A model generated the notes under the pieces. The model saw only the letters and a program-made list of their open reading frames with translations, had not been told where the DNA came from and did not search any database. From a virus, in the IMG/VR virus record IMGVR_UViG_3300032073_000220, positions 1 through 25,684 of that record: a DNA stretch of 25,684 nucleotides; one strand, 5' to 3'. The translations under genes were made by a program, and so were the position numbers. Each line of letters opens with the position of its first letter. Position 1 is the first letter of the stretch. Positions 6,490-25,375 of the stretch are shown here, one piece after another.

Positions 6490-8421
6490 ATGAAACTTGT
6501 ATTCGACATAGAGGCAGATAATTTACTGCCAAAAATATCAAAGTTCCACTGCGCAGGGGCTATTGATGTAGACACTGGAGCTGAACACTGGTTTAGGCCA
6601 CATCAGCTTAAGGAGTTTTTGACGCTACTAGACAGTGCAGAAGTCATAGTTGCCCATAATGCAATGGGCTATGACGTACCCGCCTTGTATAAGCTTGCAG
6701 GGTGGAAGCCTAAAGCTTCTGTTCACTGTACTAAGGTAATGTCTCAAGTCCTCAATTACAGGCGCTTTGGGTTTGGTCACTCTCTTAAGCGATGGGGTGA
6801 AGAGTTAGAAAAGACAAAAAACTTAGCTACAATACCTCTAGACCTGCAAGGTGGTAAAACCGAACGAAATGAGTATGTCAAGCTGGACTCCCTAAAGCAT
6901 AGCTTCCTTAAGAGTAACTACAACGGAGGGTTTGAAAAGTTTAATGAAGAGATGTTTGAGTACATGAAACAAGATGTCAGGGTAAATGTAAAAGTTTACG
7001 AGTACTTAATGCGTGAGTTAAAACAATATATTGTAAATTCTAAATCTAAAGATGTTCTTAGAGCAATACGCTCTGAGATTACTATGGATGGGATTATGGC
7101 AGAGCAGTGTGAGAACGGTTGGAAGTTTAACCGCAAAGAAGCGGAAAACCTTAGGGAAACTGTCGATAAAAAACTTACTAAGATTGCAAAGTTTATTAAT
7201 CCTAAACTTCTTGGAAAAGCCTCGGTTGTTGACCCTAACACAAAAATTGACTGTGAACCAATTACAGGAAAACGCTATGCAATCGAGAAGAAACCGACTT
7301 TTACGAAGTCGGGAAAAATTAATACCCACATTAGCCGTTGGTTTGAGCTTGATTTGGACACCACTGTTGATACTTGTCCCATTTGGGGTGCCTACTGTCG
7401 TGTCACTTTTAGTGCTGGTGATATTGGTAACACTGATACGGTTAAGCATTACCTCGGCACAATCGGCTGGGAGCCAGACCAATGGAACTGGAAACGCAAA
7501 CCTGACGGGCAATTTATCAAAGTCTCAGCCAAACTCACCGACAGTTCCTTGGAGCGATTAGGAGAGGTCGGTCAAGCACTTATGGAGTACTATACACTAA
7601 GAAGCAGAAAATCAATCTTGGAAGGATGGTTTGATTATGTTGACAAAAATTCAAGACTACATGGAGATGTTTTTAATATCGGTACGCCTACGTTTCGGCA
7701 AACCCACAAAATCATCGCCAACTTACCTAGCGGGAAAGCAGTCCTCGGCCCAGAGTTCAGAAGGCTCTTCGTCACAGAAAAAGGATACAAGCTAGTATCA
7801 GCTGACTCCGCTGCTTGCCAGTTACGCCTTCTTGCTCACTTCATGAAGGACAAAGTATTTACAAAGGAGGTACTAGAAGGTGACATTCATCAAAAGAACG
7901 CTGATATCCTTGGATGCAGTCGTGCTACTGCTAAGCCTTTTATCTTTGCCTTTTTATATGGGGCGGGTGGTAAAAAGTTAGGCAGCATACTAAAAGTAAG
8001 CGACTCAGAAGGCAATAGAGCTAAATCTAAATTTCTAAAAGCAATACCTCCATTAAAAAAATTAATTTCTAAAGTACAGAAAATAGTTGATTTACAAGGG
8101 TATCTTCCAGGTCTTGATGATAGACCAATTCACGTTGAGTCTGCTCACAAAGCTTTAAATTATCTTATTCAAGGTGCGGAAGCTGTTGTGATGAAATATA
8201 CAGTTAATATGATCCATAGAGAGCTTGAAAAAGCTAAAATTGATTCCCGTATACTGTTGTTCTATCATGATGAAGTGACTTATGAAATAAAGGAAGAGCA
8301 AGCAGAAAAAGCTCAATCTATTATTATGCGCTGTTTTGAAGAAGCTCCTAAAGAACTAGGGGTAGATATAATGGCGTGTGGCGATTGCAAAATAGGAGAT
8401 GACTACTATGACGTCCATTAA
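6490..8421 (+). CDS. T7-like family A DNA polymerase with 3'-5' exonuclease
   Basis: This 643-residue replicative polymerase has both domains. Exonuclease motifs: FDIEADNL (D6, E8), AHNAMGYDVPAL (D62) and MKQDVRVNV (D162), so proofreading should be intact. Polymerase motif A is ADSAACQLRLLAHFM (D439), motif B RATAKPFIFAFLYGAG (R478, K482, F486, Y490), motif C YHDEVTYE (H593, D594, E595). Two points stand out. The motif A position held by Glu in T7 (E480) and Escherichia coli Pol I (E710) is Gln444. The dNTP-selectivity position is Phe486, as in Pol I, where T7 has Tyr526. The ribosome site is AGGAG. It is about 60 residues shorter than T7 gp5. Confidence 0.95.
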   Translation: MKLVFDIEADNLLPKISKFHCAGAIDVDTGAEHWFRPHQLKEFLTLLDSAEVIVAHNAMGYDVPALYKLAGWKPKASVHCTKVMSQVLNYRRFGFGHSLKRWGEELEKTKNLATIPLDLQGGKTERNEYVKLDSLKHSFLKSNYNGGFEKFNEEMFEYMKQDVRVNVKVYEYLMRELKQYIVNSKSKDVLRAIRSEITMDGIMAEQCENGWKFNRKEAENLRETVDKKLTKIAKFINPKLLGKASVVDPNTKIDCEPITGKRYAIEKKPTFTKSGKINTHISRWFELDLDTTVDTCPIWGAYCRVTFSAGDIGNTDTVKHYLGTIGWEPDQWNWKRKPDGQFIKVSAKLTDSSLERLGEVGQALMEYYTLRSRKSILEGWFDYVDKNSRLHGDVFNIGTPTFRQTHKIIANLPSGKAVLGPEFRRLFVTEKGYKLVSADSAACQLRLLAHFMKDKVFTKEVLEGDIHQKNADILGCSRATAKPFIFAFLYGAGGKKLGSILKVSDSEGNRAKSKFLKAIPPLKKLISKVQKIVDLQGYLPGLDDRPIHVESAHKALNYLIQGAEAVVMKYTVNMIHRELEKAKIDSRILLFYHDEVTYEIKEEQAEKAQSIIMRCFEEAPKELGVDIMACGDCKIGDDYYDVH

Positions 8422-9219: not shown

Positions 9220-9395
9220 TGTGGGCTTTAGTTTGGCTACAACTTGTGTCAGGATCTGAGTTAGATCATTTTCACATAGCCAATTATAGTACAATGTCTG
9301 AGTGTAAACAAAAAGAAAAAGCAGCACAAGTTATGGTTAACGACTCTAGTGTTGCAGTCTTTTGTTTAAACCTTGAACTATCAAAAGAGGATTAA
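9219..9395 (+). CDS. Small possibly exported protein, 58 residues
   Basis: ATG 9219 (TAATG junction) follows AAGGAG at 9205-9210; an in-frame ATG at 9201 overlaps that site and is less likely. The N-terminus MWALVWLQLVSGSELDHFHI is hydrophobic and could be a weak signal or anchor. Two Cys (SECKQ and FCLN) could form a disulfide if exported. Function unknown. Confidence 0.6.
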   Translation: MWALVWLQLVSGSELDHFHIANYSTMSECKQKEKAAQVMVNDSSVAVFCLNLELSKED

Positions 9396-9399
9396 AGTA

Positions 9400-9777
9400 A
9401 TGATAACTATGTCTATAGAAGAAACAATTAGAATTGAGTTTGATAAGTTTTATGACAATATTAAGTCACTTTATAAAATTGAAATTGATCAGCCTATTCT
9501 AGATGAGTTAAAAACTTTAGAAGAAAATTGCGTTGATAATGCAAGCAGTGACTACACTACTGAAATGGAGGGTAGCTACGAAAGTGGTTATGACTCAGGT
9601 CATGATAATGGTTTTGATCAAGGGCATGAAAGTGGTCGAGATGAAGGCTATGAAGAAGGACATGATGAAGGCTATGAAGAAGGGCATGATGTAGGTTACA
9701 AGGAAGGCCTTGTCGATGGCTATGACGATGGCTATTCGGTGTCTGAGAGCGAACATTCTGAAAAGGAAAAAGCTTAA
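9400..9777 (+). CDS. Protein with tandem four-residue Gly-aromatic repeats
   Basis: The 125-residue acidic protein starts at ATG 9400 after AGAGGA; an in-frame TTG at 9373 has no ribosome site. Residues 1-55 are helical. Residues about 60-108 are a tandem array of a four-residue unit, Gly then Tyr/His/Phe/Arg then two mostly acidic residues (GYDSGHDNGFDQGHES and so on). The array resembles the Gly-every-fourth-residue repeat of Yae1-like proteins, but the resemblance may be compositional only. His and Asp or Glu facing one side could bind metal. Function unknown. Confidence 0.75.
   Translation: MITMSIEETIRIEFDKFYDNIKSLYKIEIDQPILDELKTLEENCVDNASSDYTTEMEGSYESGYDSGHDNGFDQGHESGRDEGYEEGHDEGYEEGHDVGYKEGLVDGYDDGYSVSESEHSEKEKA
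9640..9687 (+). repeat. 24-base tandem duplication inside the repeat protein
   Basis: Two adjacent 24-base units (9640-9663 and 9664-9687) encode DEGYEEGH twice and differ by one base. This is the best-preserved part of a 12-base periodic array covering about 9576-9720. The near identity indicates recent slippage or duplication. Confidence 0.8.
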
Positions 9778-10426: not shown

Positions 10427-11176
10427 ATGGCTTTAGCTATTATAGACGGAGATGTGCTGCTATATATGAGTATATGGGGCATGGAGTCAAAAGAAGAAGC
10501 ACGAGAAAAATTTGATGAAATATTTACTAATGTAACAGAAAGCGTTTTTGCTACAGACTATGTTATGGCCTTAGGTGGCCCTAATAACTTTAGAGTTGAT
10601 TTGTATCCTGAATACAAAGCTAATCGAAAAAAGTCGAAATCAACAAGACCTGATTGGTTCTTAGATTTGAAGTCTGACATAGTAAAAGACTATGAAGGCG
10701 CTTCTCTTAGTGATAATTGTGAAGCAGACGACATGATCAGGATTTGGGCTAACGAAGCTTTTGATGCTGGCAAGCACAGAGTAATTATTACAGTAGACAA
10801 AGACTTAGACTGTGTGGCAGGTTTACACTATAACCCAAGGAAATCAATTTTCTACACAGTTTCTGACGAAGAAGCAAATAGATTTTATTGGAAACAAATA
10901 CTTATGGGCGATCCTGTAGATAATATTCCAGGAATTCCAGGCATTGGTGTTAAGAAGGCAGAGAAAATATTAGAAAATATGCCTTGCTACGAAATAGCAG
11001 TGTGTAAAGCTTATGAAAATCATTATGGAGAGGAAGGCTATAACTACTTACTATTAAATGCTAGACTTATTCATATATGGCGCAAAATTAACGATCACTT
11101 TAAATTAAGCAAGGAACGGTATGACAAAGCTATTAAGTTCGGAACTCGGACACTGGACGTTCCCCTCCAAGCTTAA
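10427..11176 (+). CDS. 5'-3' exonuclease (flap/PIN-type, T7 gp6-like role)
   Basis: A 249-residue nuclease. The frame is open back to 10358, inside the tRNA, so ATG 10427 with AGAGGA upstream is chosen. Metal-binding acidic residues are visible: IIDGD near the N-terminus, CEADDMI in the middle, and TVDKDLDCV. The helix-hairpin-helix DNA-binding segment VDNIPGIPGIGVKKAEKIL completes the flap-endonuclease pattern. Likely roles are host DNA breakdown to nucleotides and RNA primer removal. The next gene starts within its last 56 bases. Confidence 0.88.
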   Translation: MALAIIDGDVLLYMSIWGMESKEEAREKFDEIFTNVTESVFATDYVMALGGPNNFRVDLYPEYKANRKKSKSTRPDWFLDLKSDIVKDYEGASLSDNCEADDMIRIWANEAFDAGKHRVIITVDKDLDCVAGLHYNPRKSIFYTVSDEEANRFYWKQILMGDPVDNIPGIPGIGVKKAEKILENMPCYEIAVCKAYENHYGEEGYNYLLLNARLIHIWRKINDHFKLSKERYDKAIKFGTRTLDVPLQA

Positions 11177-11594
11177 TCCTGAAAAGTGGTTTGGCTTTAT
11201 ATATTGTATAGAAAATAAAATAACTAATCAATTCTATATAGGTAAAAAACAATTTTGGAGGGGCGGTAAAAAGAAGTCTAGGACTTATGGTAAAGAAATG
11301 CCTTGGAAGAACTATACAGGTTCTTCTACTGTGTTAAATAAAGAAATAAACAAACATGGAAAAAATAATTTTGATTTTGATATAATTGATTTATATAAAA
11401 CCAAAGGAGGTCTTTATTATGCAGAAGCATATTTACAGATGCTTAGTGATTCTATGACTGAATATCTGAGTGATAAGTCTACACCAAGGTTCTATAACAG
11501 GCAAATAGCCGCTATAAGGTTTGTGCCTAAAGAACCGCCATCTAAAAAAACTAAAAATTTTATAAATAAATTAAAAAAAAGGTATATCGTATGA
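11121..11594 (+). CDS. GIY-YIG family endonuclease (probably free-standing homing)
   Basis: The 157-residue protein has the GIY-YIG core near its start: FGFIYCIENKITNQFYIGKK, followed by a W..YTGSS segment and Lys-rich spacing, as in phage Seg-like endonucleases. The catalytic Glu may lie in YYAEAYLQ. The C-terminus is strongly basic, fitting DNA binding. ATG 11121 follows AAGGA within the exonuclease gene. It sits between two core replication genes, a usual place for a homing endonuclease. It could instead be a non-mobile nuclease involved in host DNA degradation. Confidence 0.7.
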   Translation: MTKLLSSELGHWTFPSKLNPEKWFGFIYCIENKITNQFYIGKKQFWRGGKKKSRTYGKEMPWKNYTGSSTVLNKEINKHGKNNFDFDIIDLYKTKGGLYYAEAYLQMLSDSMTEYLSDKSTPRFYNRQIAAIRFVPKEPPSKKTKNFINKLKKRYIV

Positions 11595-13929: not shown

Positions 13930-15798
13930 ATGACACCTTATGAACAATTCATCCACTTGTCACGCTATTCCCGTTATCTAGATGAGCATAATCGTCGTGA
14001 AACGTGGTTAGAGACTGTAGACCGTCTTGTCAAGTTTTGGAAAGAGCAAGTCTCATCAAATGTAATAACCGAACAGGAATTTACAGACCTATACACTGCA
14101 ATCTATCACCGTGATGTTATGCCAAGCATGAGATCTATGTGGTCTGCAGGAGATGCTTTATCTAAAAATCATTTTCGTGGGTATAACTGTAGCTTTGCTG
14201 TAGTAGACCATCCACGAGTATTTGATGAAATATTATATATATTAATGTCAGGAACAGGAGTAGGCTTTTCTGCTGAGTCGCAGCACGTAAACAAACTCCC
14301 AATAATAAATGACAATTTTGTTAACACCGAAAGAGAAATCATTATCGAGGACTCTGCCGAAGGTTGGGCTAAAGGCCTCAGAAAATTAATTGCTGATTTA
14401 TACCTTGGTAATGAACACAACTGGGATTACTCCCATATTCGTCCAGAAGGCGCACGTTTAAAGACTATGGGCGGTAGGGCTTCTGGCCCACAACCTTTGA
14501 AGTCTCTCTTCTTTTTTATAACTGACATGTTTAAAAGGGCAGGGGGTCGAAAACTAAGACCAATCGAAGTACATGATATTGTATGTAAAATTGCCGAAGT
14601 TGTGGTAGTAGGCGGGGTAAGACGATCTGCTCTTATTTCAATATCAGATCTTGGAGACCCAGAAGTAAGAGACTGTAAGTCTGGTCGTTGGTGGGAAACT
14701 ACTTCTCATCGTGCTTTGGCTAACAACTCAGCAGCCTATGATTCTAAGCCCTCTATGCACGTTTTTATGGATGAGTGGACAGCTTTAATGAAGTCTGGCT
14801 CTGGTGAAAGAGGTATTTACTCTCGTTACGGAGCTAAAAATCTAGCCCCTGCTCGTAGAGATGAAGAACAGATTTTAGGTACAAACCCTTGCGCTGAAAT
14901 ACAGTTACGTTCAAATCAACTGTGCAACCTCTCAGAAGTTGTTTGTCGAGAGGAAGATACAGAAGAAGACCTATTAAGAAAGGTTAAACTTGCAACTATT
15001 TTAGGCACGTTACAGGCCTCTCTTACTGACTTTAAATATGTTCGTAAGATATGGCAAAAGAACTGTGAAGATGAACGTTTACTAGGCGTATCTTTAACAG
15101 GAATACAAGATTGTAAAATCTTGCGAGAACCAGACCCCGATATGTTAGAAAGACTACGTGATGCCGCAAATGAAGTTAATGTTGAATACTCCGAGAAGCT
15201 TGGAATCAACCCCGCAACTGCGATTACTACAATTAAGCCTAGCGGCACTGTCAGTCAGCTTGTGGACTCTAGCTCTGGCATTCATGGGCGTTTTTCACCT
15301 TACTATATAAGAACTGTTCGTCAGGCTAACAACGACCCTTTAACTGATTTGTTAAAAGACCAAGGGGTTCCCAATGAGTGTGACATTATGAATCCTGGAA
15401 ATACTACTGTATTTTCTTTTCCTATTAAATCACCAGAAGGTGCTACTCTTGCTAATGAGCAAACAGCAATCGAACAGCTTGAGAATTGGAAGCTTTTCCA
15501 AAAGCACTGGTCAGAACACTCTGTTTCCGTAACGGTCTATGTTAAAGACGATGAATGGATGGAAGTAGGCTCTTGGGTTTATACTAACTTTGATTACATT
15601 ACTGGTGTTAGTTTCCTACCTTACTCCGATCATACCTATGATCAAGCCCCTTATCAGCCTTGTTCTAAAGAAGAATATGAAAAGGCATTGGAGGCACAGC
15701 CTTCTGTAGACTATAACAAACTTTCAGAATTTGAGATTGAAGATAGTACTGAAGGTTCACAAACTTTAGCATGTTCTGCTGGCGGTTGTGAGATATAA
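13930..15798 (+). CDS. nrdJ: B12-dependent (class II) ribonucleoside-triphosphate reductase
   Basis: A 622-residue monomeric class II reductase that makes deoxynucleotides using adenosylcobalamin. The key residues line up with the Lactobacillus leichmannii enzyme: C87 in GYNCSF (C119), C321 in TNPCAEI (thiyl radical C408), E323 (E410) and C332 (C419, same 11-residue spacing). The C-terminal pair C615 and C620 in CSAGGCEI matches C731/C736, which pass electrons to the active site. TIKPSGTVSQLVDSSSGIHG is the conserved phosphate-site region. It needs no oxygen and no second subunit but relies on host cobalamin. The nearby glutaredoxin could be its reductant. The enzyme is shorter than the 739-residue model. 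Confidence 0.93.
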   Translation: MTPYEQFIHLSRYSRYLDEHNRRETWLETVDRLVKFWKEQVSSNVITEQEFTDLYTAIYHRDVMPSMRSMWSAGDALSKNHFRGYNCSFAVVDHPRVFDEILYILMSGTGVGFSAESQHVNKLPIINDNFVNTEREIIIEDSAEGWAKGLRKLIADLYLGNEHNWDYSHIRPEGARLKTMGGRASGPQPLKSLFFFITDMFKRAGGRKLRPIEVHDIVCKIAEVVVVGGVRRSALISISDLGDPEVRDCKSGRWWETTSHRALANNSAAYDSKPSMHVFMDEWTALMKSGSGERGIYSRYGAKNLAPARRDEEQILGTNPCAEIQLRSNQLCNLSEVVCREEDTEEDLLRKVKLATILGTLQASLTDFKYVRKIWQKNCEDERLLGVSLTGIQDCKILREPDPDMLERLRDAANEVNVEYSEKLGINPATAITTIKPSGTVSQLVDSSSGIHGRFSPYYIRTVRQANNDPLTDLLKDQGVPNECDIMNPGNTTVFSFPIKSPEGATLANEQTAIEQLENWKLFQKHWSEHSVSVTVYVKDDEWMEVGSWVYTNFDYITGVSFLPYSDHTYDQAPYQPCSKEEYEKALEAQPSVDYNKLSEFEIEDSTEGSQTLACSAGGCEI

Positions 15799-16958: not shown

Positions 16959-17201
16959 ATGTATTTTATAGTAGGCAAAGATGGCTGTGACTTCTGTGAT
17001 GCTGCTAAAGCAATACTAGACAAAGATCATGTAGCTTATGTTTACAAGAATCTATCTACAATACCTACAGTAGAAAGAGAAAAGTGGACTAATTTAATAA
17101 AAGACGACTTGGGGTGTACCACTGTCCCAGTTGTTATTGAACTTGTTGGTGGTTATGAAGAATTAAAAGGAAGAGTAAATTATGACAGACACGTTAAATA
17201 A
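16959..17201 (+). CDS. Glutaredoxin
   Basis: An 80-residue single-domain redox protein. The active site is GCDFCDAA near residues 9-16 (C10, C13), and the conserved cis-proline segment is TVPVVIEL (about residues 52-59), followed by a GGYEEL glutathione-site turn. It reduces disulfides with glutathione or thioredoxin reductase. It is a likely electron donor for the C-terminal cysteines of the phage ribonucleotide reductase, about 1.2 kb upstream. It overlaps the next gene by 20 bases. Confidence 0.85.
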   Translation: MYFIVGKDGCDFCDAAKAILDKDHVAYVYKNLSTIPTVEREKWTNLIKDDLGCTTVPVVIELVGGYEELKGRVNYDRHVK

Positions 17202-23881: not shown

Positions 23882-25375
23882 ATGACTGCTTCTTACACAT
23901 TACAAACAACCGTTAACGATTTAAACGTTAGCCTGTCTCGAACAGGGGGGCAGGGGTCTAAGGGAGACTCTATAACAAGTGTAACTCTAGACTCTAATAA
24001 TGATTTAATCGTTGTAATTTCTAATGCGGCTGGAGGAGTAGTATCATCAACTAATGTTGGTGGCTCTGCTTACTTTACAGCTTTAACTGCGCTTCAAACC
24101 TCAGCTACAGCAGCAAAAACAGCTGCAGAGGCGGCTTTAGACAGTTTTGATGACAGATACCTTGGTGTTAAATCTTCTGCCCCTAGCGCAGACAACGATG
24201 GAAATGCCTTGCTAAATGGCGCACTGTATTTTGACAGTACTAACTCCAACTTAGGTATTTTTAATACTACAGGTTCTTCTTGGGAATATCCTGCAACAGA
24301 GGCAGCAACTTCTGCTACAGCAGCAGCAACTTCCGCCACGGCGGCGGCTAGCTCGGCAACAGCGGCGGCTAGTTCTTCAACTGCAGCTACAGCTTCCCAG
24401 AGTGACGCAAGCTCTTCCGCAACAGCGGCTTTAGCTTCTCAAAATGCAGCAGCTACTAGTGCTACTTCAGCAGCAACTCAGGCCACCAACTCAGCTAGTT
24501 CTGCTAACTCTGCTTCAGCTAGTGCTTCAACAGCAACTACAAAAGCGTCAGACGCCTCAACAAGCGAGAGCAATGCGTCAACTTCAGCTAATAATGCGTC
24601 AACTTCAGCAAACAATGCTTTAAGTTCTAAGACTGCAGCACAAAACTCTGCAAACGCGTCTTCTACAAGTGCAAGTGCGGCGGCAGTTAGCGCAACAAAT
24701 GCGGCTAGTTCTCAAAGCTCTGCAGGGACTTCTGCAACAGCGGCGGCGGCAAGCCAGACTAGTGCAGCAAACGAAGCAAGTGCGGCAGCAACTTCTGCCA
24801 GTACTTCAACTTCAAAAGCGGCCTTGGCAACTACTAGTGCTACTAACGCCTCTACTTCTGAGACAAATGCTCTGGCTAGTAAGAATGCCGCAGCTACAAG
24901 TGCAACAAACGCAGCCACTTCTGAAACAAATGCTTTAGCTAGCAAGAATGCGGCGGCGGCTAGTGCTACAACAACAACTAGCAACCTTGCAAGTATACAA
25001 ACAATTTTTGATAGTTTTGATGATAGATACCTAGGCGCTAAGACATCTGACCCTACTGTGGATAACGATGGTGATGCTCTGTTAACAGGATCAATTTACT
25101 GGAATACCCCTAACGGAGAACTAAGATTTTATAATGGTTCTTCTTGGGAAGCTCCTGATGCTCAAGCAGCCGCTAGTGCTACTTCGGCAGCAGCCAGTGC
25201 TACTTCAGCTACGGCTAGTGCTATTTCAGCAAATACAGCTTCTTCAACAGCAACACAAAAAGCAAACGAAGCTTCGGCTTCAGCTACAACAGCAACAACA
25301 AAAGCAACTGAAGCGGCAGCAAGTGCGGCGACAGCAGAGGGTTCAGCCCTTGCGCTTTCAATCGCGTTAGGGTGA
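23882..25375 (+). CDS. Tail or head fibre protein, Ala/Ser/Thr coiled-coil repeats
   Basis: A 497-residue fibre. Residues 1-86 are an N-terminal virion-attachment-like part with one GGQGSKGDS turn. Two homologous modules (about 87-138 and 377-425) begin SFDDRYLG and end SWE.P, a motif common in marine phage fibres (DRYLGAK..DPTVDNDGDAL). The first is followed by a long Ala/Ser/Thr heptad-like stretch (about 140-370), the second by another to the end. Such stretches form trimeric coiled coils. It ends without a receptor-binding domain, so the tip may be a different protein. Confidence 0.8.
   Translation: MTASYTLQTTVNDLNVSLSRTGGQGSKGDSITSVTLDSNNDLIVVISNAAGGVVSSTNVGGSAYFTALTALQTSATAAKTAAEAALDSFDDRYLGVKSSAPSADNDGNALLNGALYFDSTNSNLGIFNTTGSSWEYPATEAATSATAAATSATAAASSATAAASSSTAATASQSDASSSATAALASQNAAATSATSAATQATNSASSANSASASASTATTKASDASTSESNASTSANNASTSANNALSSKTAAQNSANASSTSASAAAVSATNAASSQSSAGTSATAAAASQTSAANEASAAATSASTSTSKAALATTSATNASTSETNALASKNAAATSATNAATSETNALASKNAAAASATTTTSNLASIQTIFDSFDDRYLGAKTSDPTVDNDGDALLTGSIYWNTPNGELRFYNGSSWEAPDAQAAASATSAAASATSATASAISANTASSTATQKANEASASATTATTKATEAAASAATAEGSALALSIALG
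24836..24961 (+). repeat. Tandem 21-residue fibre repeat (two 63-base units)
   Basis: Units 24836-24898 and 24899-24961 encode SATNASTSETNALASKNAAA plus T, and SATNAATSETNALASKNAAA plus A. They differ in amino acid at only two places but at many third-codon positions, so the protein repeat is under selection and not just recently duplicated DNA. They lie in the long coiled-coil region. Confidence 0.8.

Follow-up and report, generated by a model that had tools for sequence, protein, structure and literature searches.

The window analysed here, 25,684 nucleotides of DNA from a marine phage, spans positions 1 to 25,684 of IMG/VR record IMGVR_UViG_3300032073_000220. Its replication block runs in the order RNA polymerase, DNA polymerase, 5'-3' exonuclease, GIY-YIG protein and primase-helicase, and is collinear with that of the Naomviridae phage DSS3_VP1; the window therefore probably derives from a Naomviridae-like podovirus. 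The GIY-YIG protein is SegE-like and lies between the exonuclease and the primase-helicase in DSS3_VP1 (57% identity) and in many relatives as well, and on account of this conserved place it looks like a resident gene and not a homing endonuclease. The window also encodes a ribonucleotide reductase with a glutaredoxin further downstream, a repeat-containing protein and, near the end of the record, an extremely Ala/Ser-rich protein that is perhaps tail-fibre-like. Coordinates are collected in Table 1.

Table 1. Features of the polymerase gene and of other genes in the window
Feature	Position	Strand	Basis or description
Family A (T7-type) DNA polymerase gene	6490..8421	+	643 aa; PF00476, phrog_17, AlphaFold2 model compared with T7
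Exonuclease Asp6 and Glu8	6505..6513	+	Invariant in 19-sequence alignment
Motif A, residues 438-452, ADSAACQLRLLAHFM	7801..7845	+	Aligns without gaps with 18 phage polymerases and with motif A of T7
Asp439, catalytic metal-binding Asp (E. coli D705, T7 D475)	7804..7806	+	Invariant in alignments
Cys443, equivalent of E. coli I709 / Taq I614, adjoining the gate	7816..7818	+	Residue counts in phage and cellular rows
Gln444, codon CAG, replacing the steric-gate Glu (E. coli E710, Taq E615, T7 E480)	7819..7821	+	Translation, alignments, relatives
O helix / motif B: Arg478, Lys482, Phe486 (F762 equivalent, T7 Y526), Tyr490 (Y766 equivalent, T7 Y530)	7921..7959	+	Alignment
Motif C, His593-Asp594-Glu595	8266..8274	+	Invariant in alignments
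Protein with Gly/Asp/Tyr-rich repeat (GHDEGYEEGHD...)	9373..9777		Yae1_N match
SegE-like GIY-YIG protein	11121..11594		
Ribonucleotide reductase	13930..15798		622 aa; weak B12-dependent (class II) domain matches
Glutaredoxin	16959..17201		
Ala/Ser-rich protein	23882..25375		497 aa

The product of the polymerase gene matched PF00476 (DNA_pol_A; E 7e-34, 117.8 bits against a curated cut-off of 34.3) and the phrog_17 DNA polymerase family (E 3e-118). An AlphaFold2 model of the protein (pLDDT 87) superposed on T7 polymerase (2ajq) with Z 35.2 and rmsd 2.2 over 542 residues, so that a T7-like overall fold with a 3'-5' exonuclease domain is predicted. The window polymerase shares with T7 gp5 this whole-length fold, the exonuclease and polymerase layout, a motif A that aligns without gaps and the Asp/Arg/Lys/His-Asp-Glu set. 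It differs in length (643 against 704 residues, at about 29% identity) and in having Gln444, Cys443 and Phe486 where T7 has Glu480, Leu479 and Tyr526.

Residues characteristic of family A were present throughout, with the motif A Asp, the O-helix Arg and Lys and the His-Asp-Glu of motif C all in place. The initial annotation had listed D439, R478, K482, Y490, D594 and E595 as intact, and all six were recovered in a 19-sequence alignment, together with Arg446 and His593; Tyr490 alone of these eight residues varies in that alignment, and the other seven are invariant, as are the exonuclease residues. Asp6, Glu8, Asp62 and Asp162 together suggest a proofreading site that looks intact, the exonuclease role of all four being one that we assign by analogy with T7.

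Against this standard background, the position of the steric-gate Glu, a residue that contributes to the exclusion of ribonucleotides, is occupied by Gln444. That Gln444 corresponds to E480 of T7 and to E710 of E. coli Pol I, as first proposed from the sequence, was borne out by phmmer, which paired 'adsaacqlrllahfm' with the T7 gp5 segment 'idasglelrclahfm' without a gap. Gln was likewise found in 19 of the 19 nearest IMG/VR relatives in which motif A was covered (58-83% identical). The chance that Gln444 stems from a sequencing or assembly error, or from a misaligned motif A, is negligible and both were ruled out, as the relatives come from other contigs and motif A is gap-free from the invariant Asp to the invariant Arg.

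The distribution of Gln and Glu was then assessed in a phage census of 339 loci in which identical 120-base sites were counted once. Gln was found in 155 sequences (100 CAG, 55 CAA) and Glu in 103, counts that are not frequencies since the census was seeded mostly with Gln-type queries. Within the Gln group the codon varied only synonymously, and Glu was absent. In a tree of 70 phage representatives, built with the three trait columns masked, Gln and Glu separated on a single branch (SH-aLRT 91), and a single change at 710 therefore suffices among these representatives. The Gln group comprises the Naomviridae-like phages (including the window), SIO1 and the cobaviruses, Zobellviridae, Kolga-like phages and CRP-7. 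Named carriers of Gln are DSS3_VP1, DSS3_PM1, CRP-7, Kolga, Vibrio phage 1.208.B, Erwinia phage Pecta, SIO1 and Zobellviridae phage T4S1-k141_462158; Glu is carried by the enzymes of P1723 (T7-like), HTVC115P, HTVC019P, CHOED, ProddE, CRP-143 and Slicky01. Judged from these comparisons, Gln at 710 is an inherited trait of a large phage polymerase group and not an error, in keeping with the earlier suggestion of a lineage trait among aquatic podoviruses. No report of natural Glu-to-Gln variation was found in the literature searched, which covers a minority of subscription journals.

The polymerases of DSS3_VP1 and DSS3_PM1 have the same motif A (DSAACQLR) and the same Phe762 and Tyr766 equivalents as the window polymerase, to which they are 48% identical, and are encoded in the collinear replication module described above. 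DSS3_VP1 differs in carrying a dCTP deaminase near the polymerase and a two-subunit ribonucleotide reductase; a search of the window found no homologue of either. Homologues of the deaminase do occur in three relatives (L005, L006, L007), a hint that some members of the window's group have dU-DNA. The SIO1/cobavirus, Zobellviridae, Kolga and CRP-7 polymerases resemble that of the window in having Gln at 710 and in retaining the catalytic residues, but they differ at 766, where they have Phe or, in the SIO1 group, Leu, and the Zobellviridae enzymes also differ by Val at 845.

Gln at this position is not confined to phages. When 84,980 species genomes were scanned for DYSQIQLR with one codon subset, 56 contigs (L353-L408) were returned, 53 of which encode a genuine Pol I with Gln710 and Tyr766; the remaining three matches (L358, L394, L395) are not PolA. 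Motif C was intact in all 53 save one in which it was unreadable. By their titles, these contigs belong mostly to Alphaproteobacteria (including Rickettsiales and Candidatus Enterousia), with Patescibacteria and Niyogibacteria besides, and come from metagenome-assembled genomes. Of 289 genomes sampled from the class of Candidatus Enterousia, 3 (counting the centre) had the Gln pattern; of 96 in a smaller draw, 75 had the Glu pattern. The bacterial enzymes share Gln710 and the Phe762/Tyr766 pair with the window polymerase; they differ from it in being cellular enzymes with Ile709 that fall in separate tree groups. A combined phage and cellular tree required six changes at 710, at least three of them forced by starred branches, and the alphaproteobacterial and patescibacterial rows formed separate starred groups. 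The Gln enzyme was the sole PolA in 13 of 13 genomes checked (0.7-1.0 Mb), and since Gln710 thus occurs in the only Pol I of small genomes, it fits with a functional enzyme. The initial description of the Glu as nearly constant in family A was therefore overstated: Gln takes its place throughout a large group of phages and in no fewer than two lineages of bacteria. By sequence, Glu at the steric gate fails as a rule in the phage Gln group and in the 53 bacterial Pol I enzymes, and so we do not take it as defining family A itself.

Differences were also observed at neighbouring positions. Position 709/614 in phage Gln rows was mostly Cys (16) or Asn (10), with Ala (2), Ile (2) and Tyr (1), whereas phage Glu rows had mostly Leu (24), with Ile (2) and Gln (1). 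All 38 cellular rows had Ile, a uniformity that is partly by construction because the search patterns fixed this residue. Asn at 709 is found in the Kolga-like phages, and Ile is kept in SIO1-type Gln enzymes and in the bacterial Gln enzymes found. At 766, phage Gln representatives mostly have Phe, the SIO1 group having Leu and the group of the window Tyr; phage Glu representatives almost always have Tyr. In raw counts, Glu occurred with Tyr 120 times and with Phe 3 times, and Gln with Phe 103, Leu 61 and Tyr 31 times. Glu710 and Tyr766 have been called universally conserved and are joined by a hydrogen bond when the complex is closed (PMC4882331), and this pairing suggests coupling between 710 and 766. 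Strict co-variation was rejected, as there were too few independent changes (one pair on the phage tree; three starred pairs, p 0.5, on the combined tree), bacterial Gln enzymes retain Tyr, and Glu occurs with Phe in mycobacteriophage and staphylophage enzymes. Position 845 varies as well: SIO1-group polymerases (L032 and relatives; L205, L232) combine Gln710 and Leu766 with Ser845, and Zobellviridae-type polymerases (L029, L031, L176, L177, L179, L182, L341) combine Gln710 and Phe766 with Val in place of Asn845.

The explanation that we favour, with moderate confidence, is that the window encodes the T7-type polymerase with which an uncultured Naomviridae-like podovirus replicates its DNA, and that this enzyme is active, with an inherited Gln gate in which size is kept and charge is lost. 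The enzyme is probably active, given the intact catalytic residues and the conservation of Gln in its lineage, and the whole-length superposition of its predicted structure on T7 polymerase supports this explanation. Gln in place of Glu would retain the bulk of the gate while removing its negative charge, and the loss of charge would alter the energetics of fingers closing instead of opening the gate. Where the Tyr partner has become Phe or Leu, as in sister lineages, the change would fit a weaker need for its hydrogen bond after loss of the carboxylate, although coupling is not proven. That Gln is isosteric with Glu argues for a gate that is largely kept; the additional change at 709/614 (Cys443) argues against it. 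In Tt72 polymerase, Ala at the equivalents of D705 and D882 left about 4% activity, and the E710 equivalent was judged accessory (PMC9324360). The literature searched contained no relevant family A polymerase mutant with Glu changed to Gln (E710Q, E615Q or E480Q). As a counterpoint, a poorer enzyme would be predicted with Gln unless the phage enzyme has adapted. Altered sugar selection from Gln444 is possible, and fidelity may be altered too, as the initial annotation proposed.

A gate that has in fact opened appears unlikely to us. Here, Gln710 together with loss of the bulky aliphatic residue at 709 (Cys443; Asn in Kolga-like phages) would allow ribonucleotides to be incorporated, or 2'-modified nucleotides to be tolerated, at biologically relevant rates. 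The residues seen at 709/614 in phage Gln rows fit such a gate, as do Taq variants in which residue 614 is replaced, either alone or with a second nearby residue (I614K; I614N:L616I; I614T, I614M or I614E with E615G), which accept rNTPs or 2'-modified NTPs (PMC9738464, PMC4854868). However, E615G removes the side chain in those double mutants, and Gln is far larger than Gly and keeps the bulk; moreover, Ile709 is kept in SIO1-type and bacterial Gln enzymes. The changed 709/614 neighbour offers the most promising hint of altered sugar selection in the phage Gln polymerases. We likewise give a low probability to a wider scenario, in which a large natural group of phage replicases replaced Glu710, its neighbour Ile709 and often Tyr766, so that its sugar discrimination would be partly different and ribonucleotides possibly left in phage genomes, with small-genome bacteria reaching Gln in Pol I independently.

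Conservative drift, in which Glu and Gln are nearly interchangeable and the trait was inherited from one ancestor without functional meaning, is rather improbable. The single change at 710 on the phage tree is consistent with drift, as is the recurrence of Gln in unrelated small-genome bacteria whose motifs are otherwise standard. Carriage of ribonucleotide reductase was also not associated with Gln (18 of 28 Gln against 15 of 25 Glu contigs, tallied by hand from a table, the contigs being possibly incomplete), and with no difference between the two sets, the idea that such carriage lets Gln be tolerated through the dNTP pool was rejected. Yet Glu lies only one base away, and there were zero reversions in the 155 distinct sequences, which include deep divergences.

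It is very doubtful that Gln, with Phe766 in many members, is an adaptation for using modified dNTPs such as those of phages with Z-DNA or dU-DNA. Phe at 766 is a shared signature of the 2-aminoadenine polymerases DpoZ (PMC8599892), and DSS3_VP1, the nearest isolate, reportedly has a dU-DNA genome together with the enzymes for making it (PMC12697855). But the window polymerase retains Tyr490 where DpoZ enzymes have Phe, motif A is not among the listed departures of DpoZ (PMC8599892), and the gate contacts the sugar, not the base. No match to PF00709, the adenylosuccinate synthetase family to which PurZ belongs, was found in 20 Gln-phage records other than the window (25.7 kb, maybe a fragment), and on these records a Z-DNA link of Gln was rejected; a dU-DNA link for the window was rejected because it lacks the deaminase homologue.

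The sugar gate of family A polymerases has been said to include Glu710 universally (PMC4882331), a view that the widespread natural occurrence of Gln contradicts. The natural Gln variants, with altered partners in related lineages, form an enzyme panel for the separate parts played by charge, size and the Tyr766 hydrogen bond in ribonucleotide rejection, and the Gln-type phage polymerases may prove useful for modified nucleotides.
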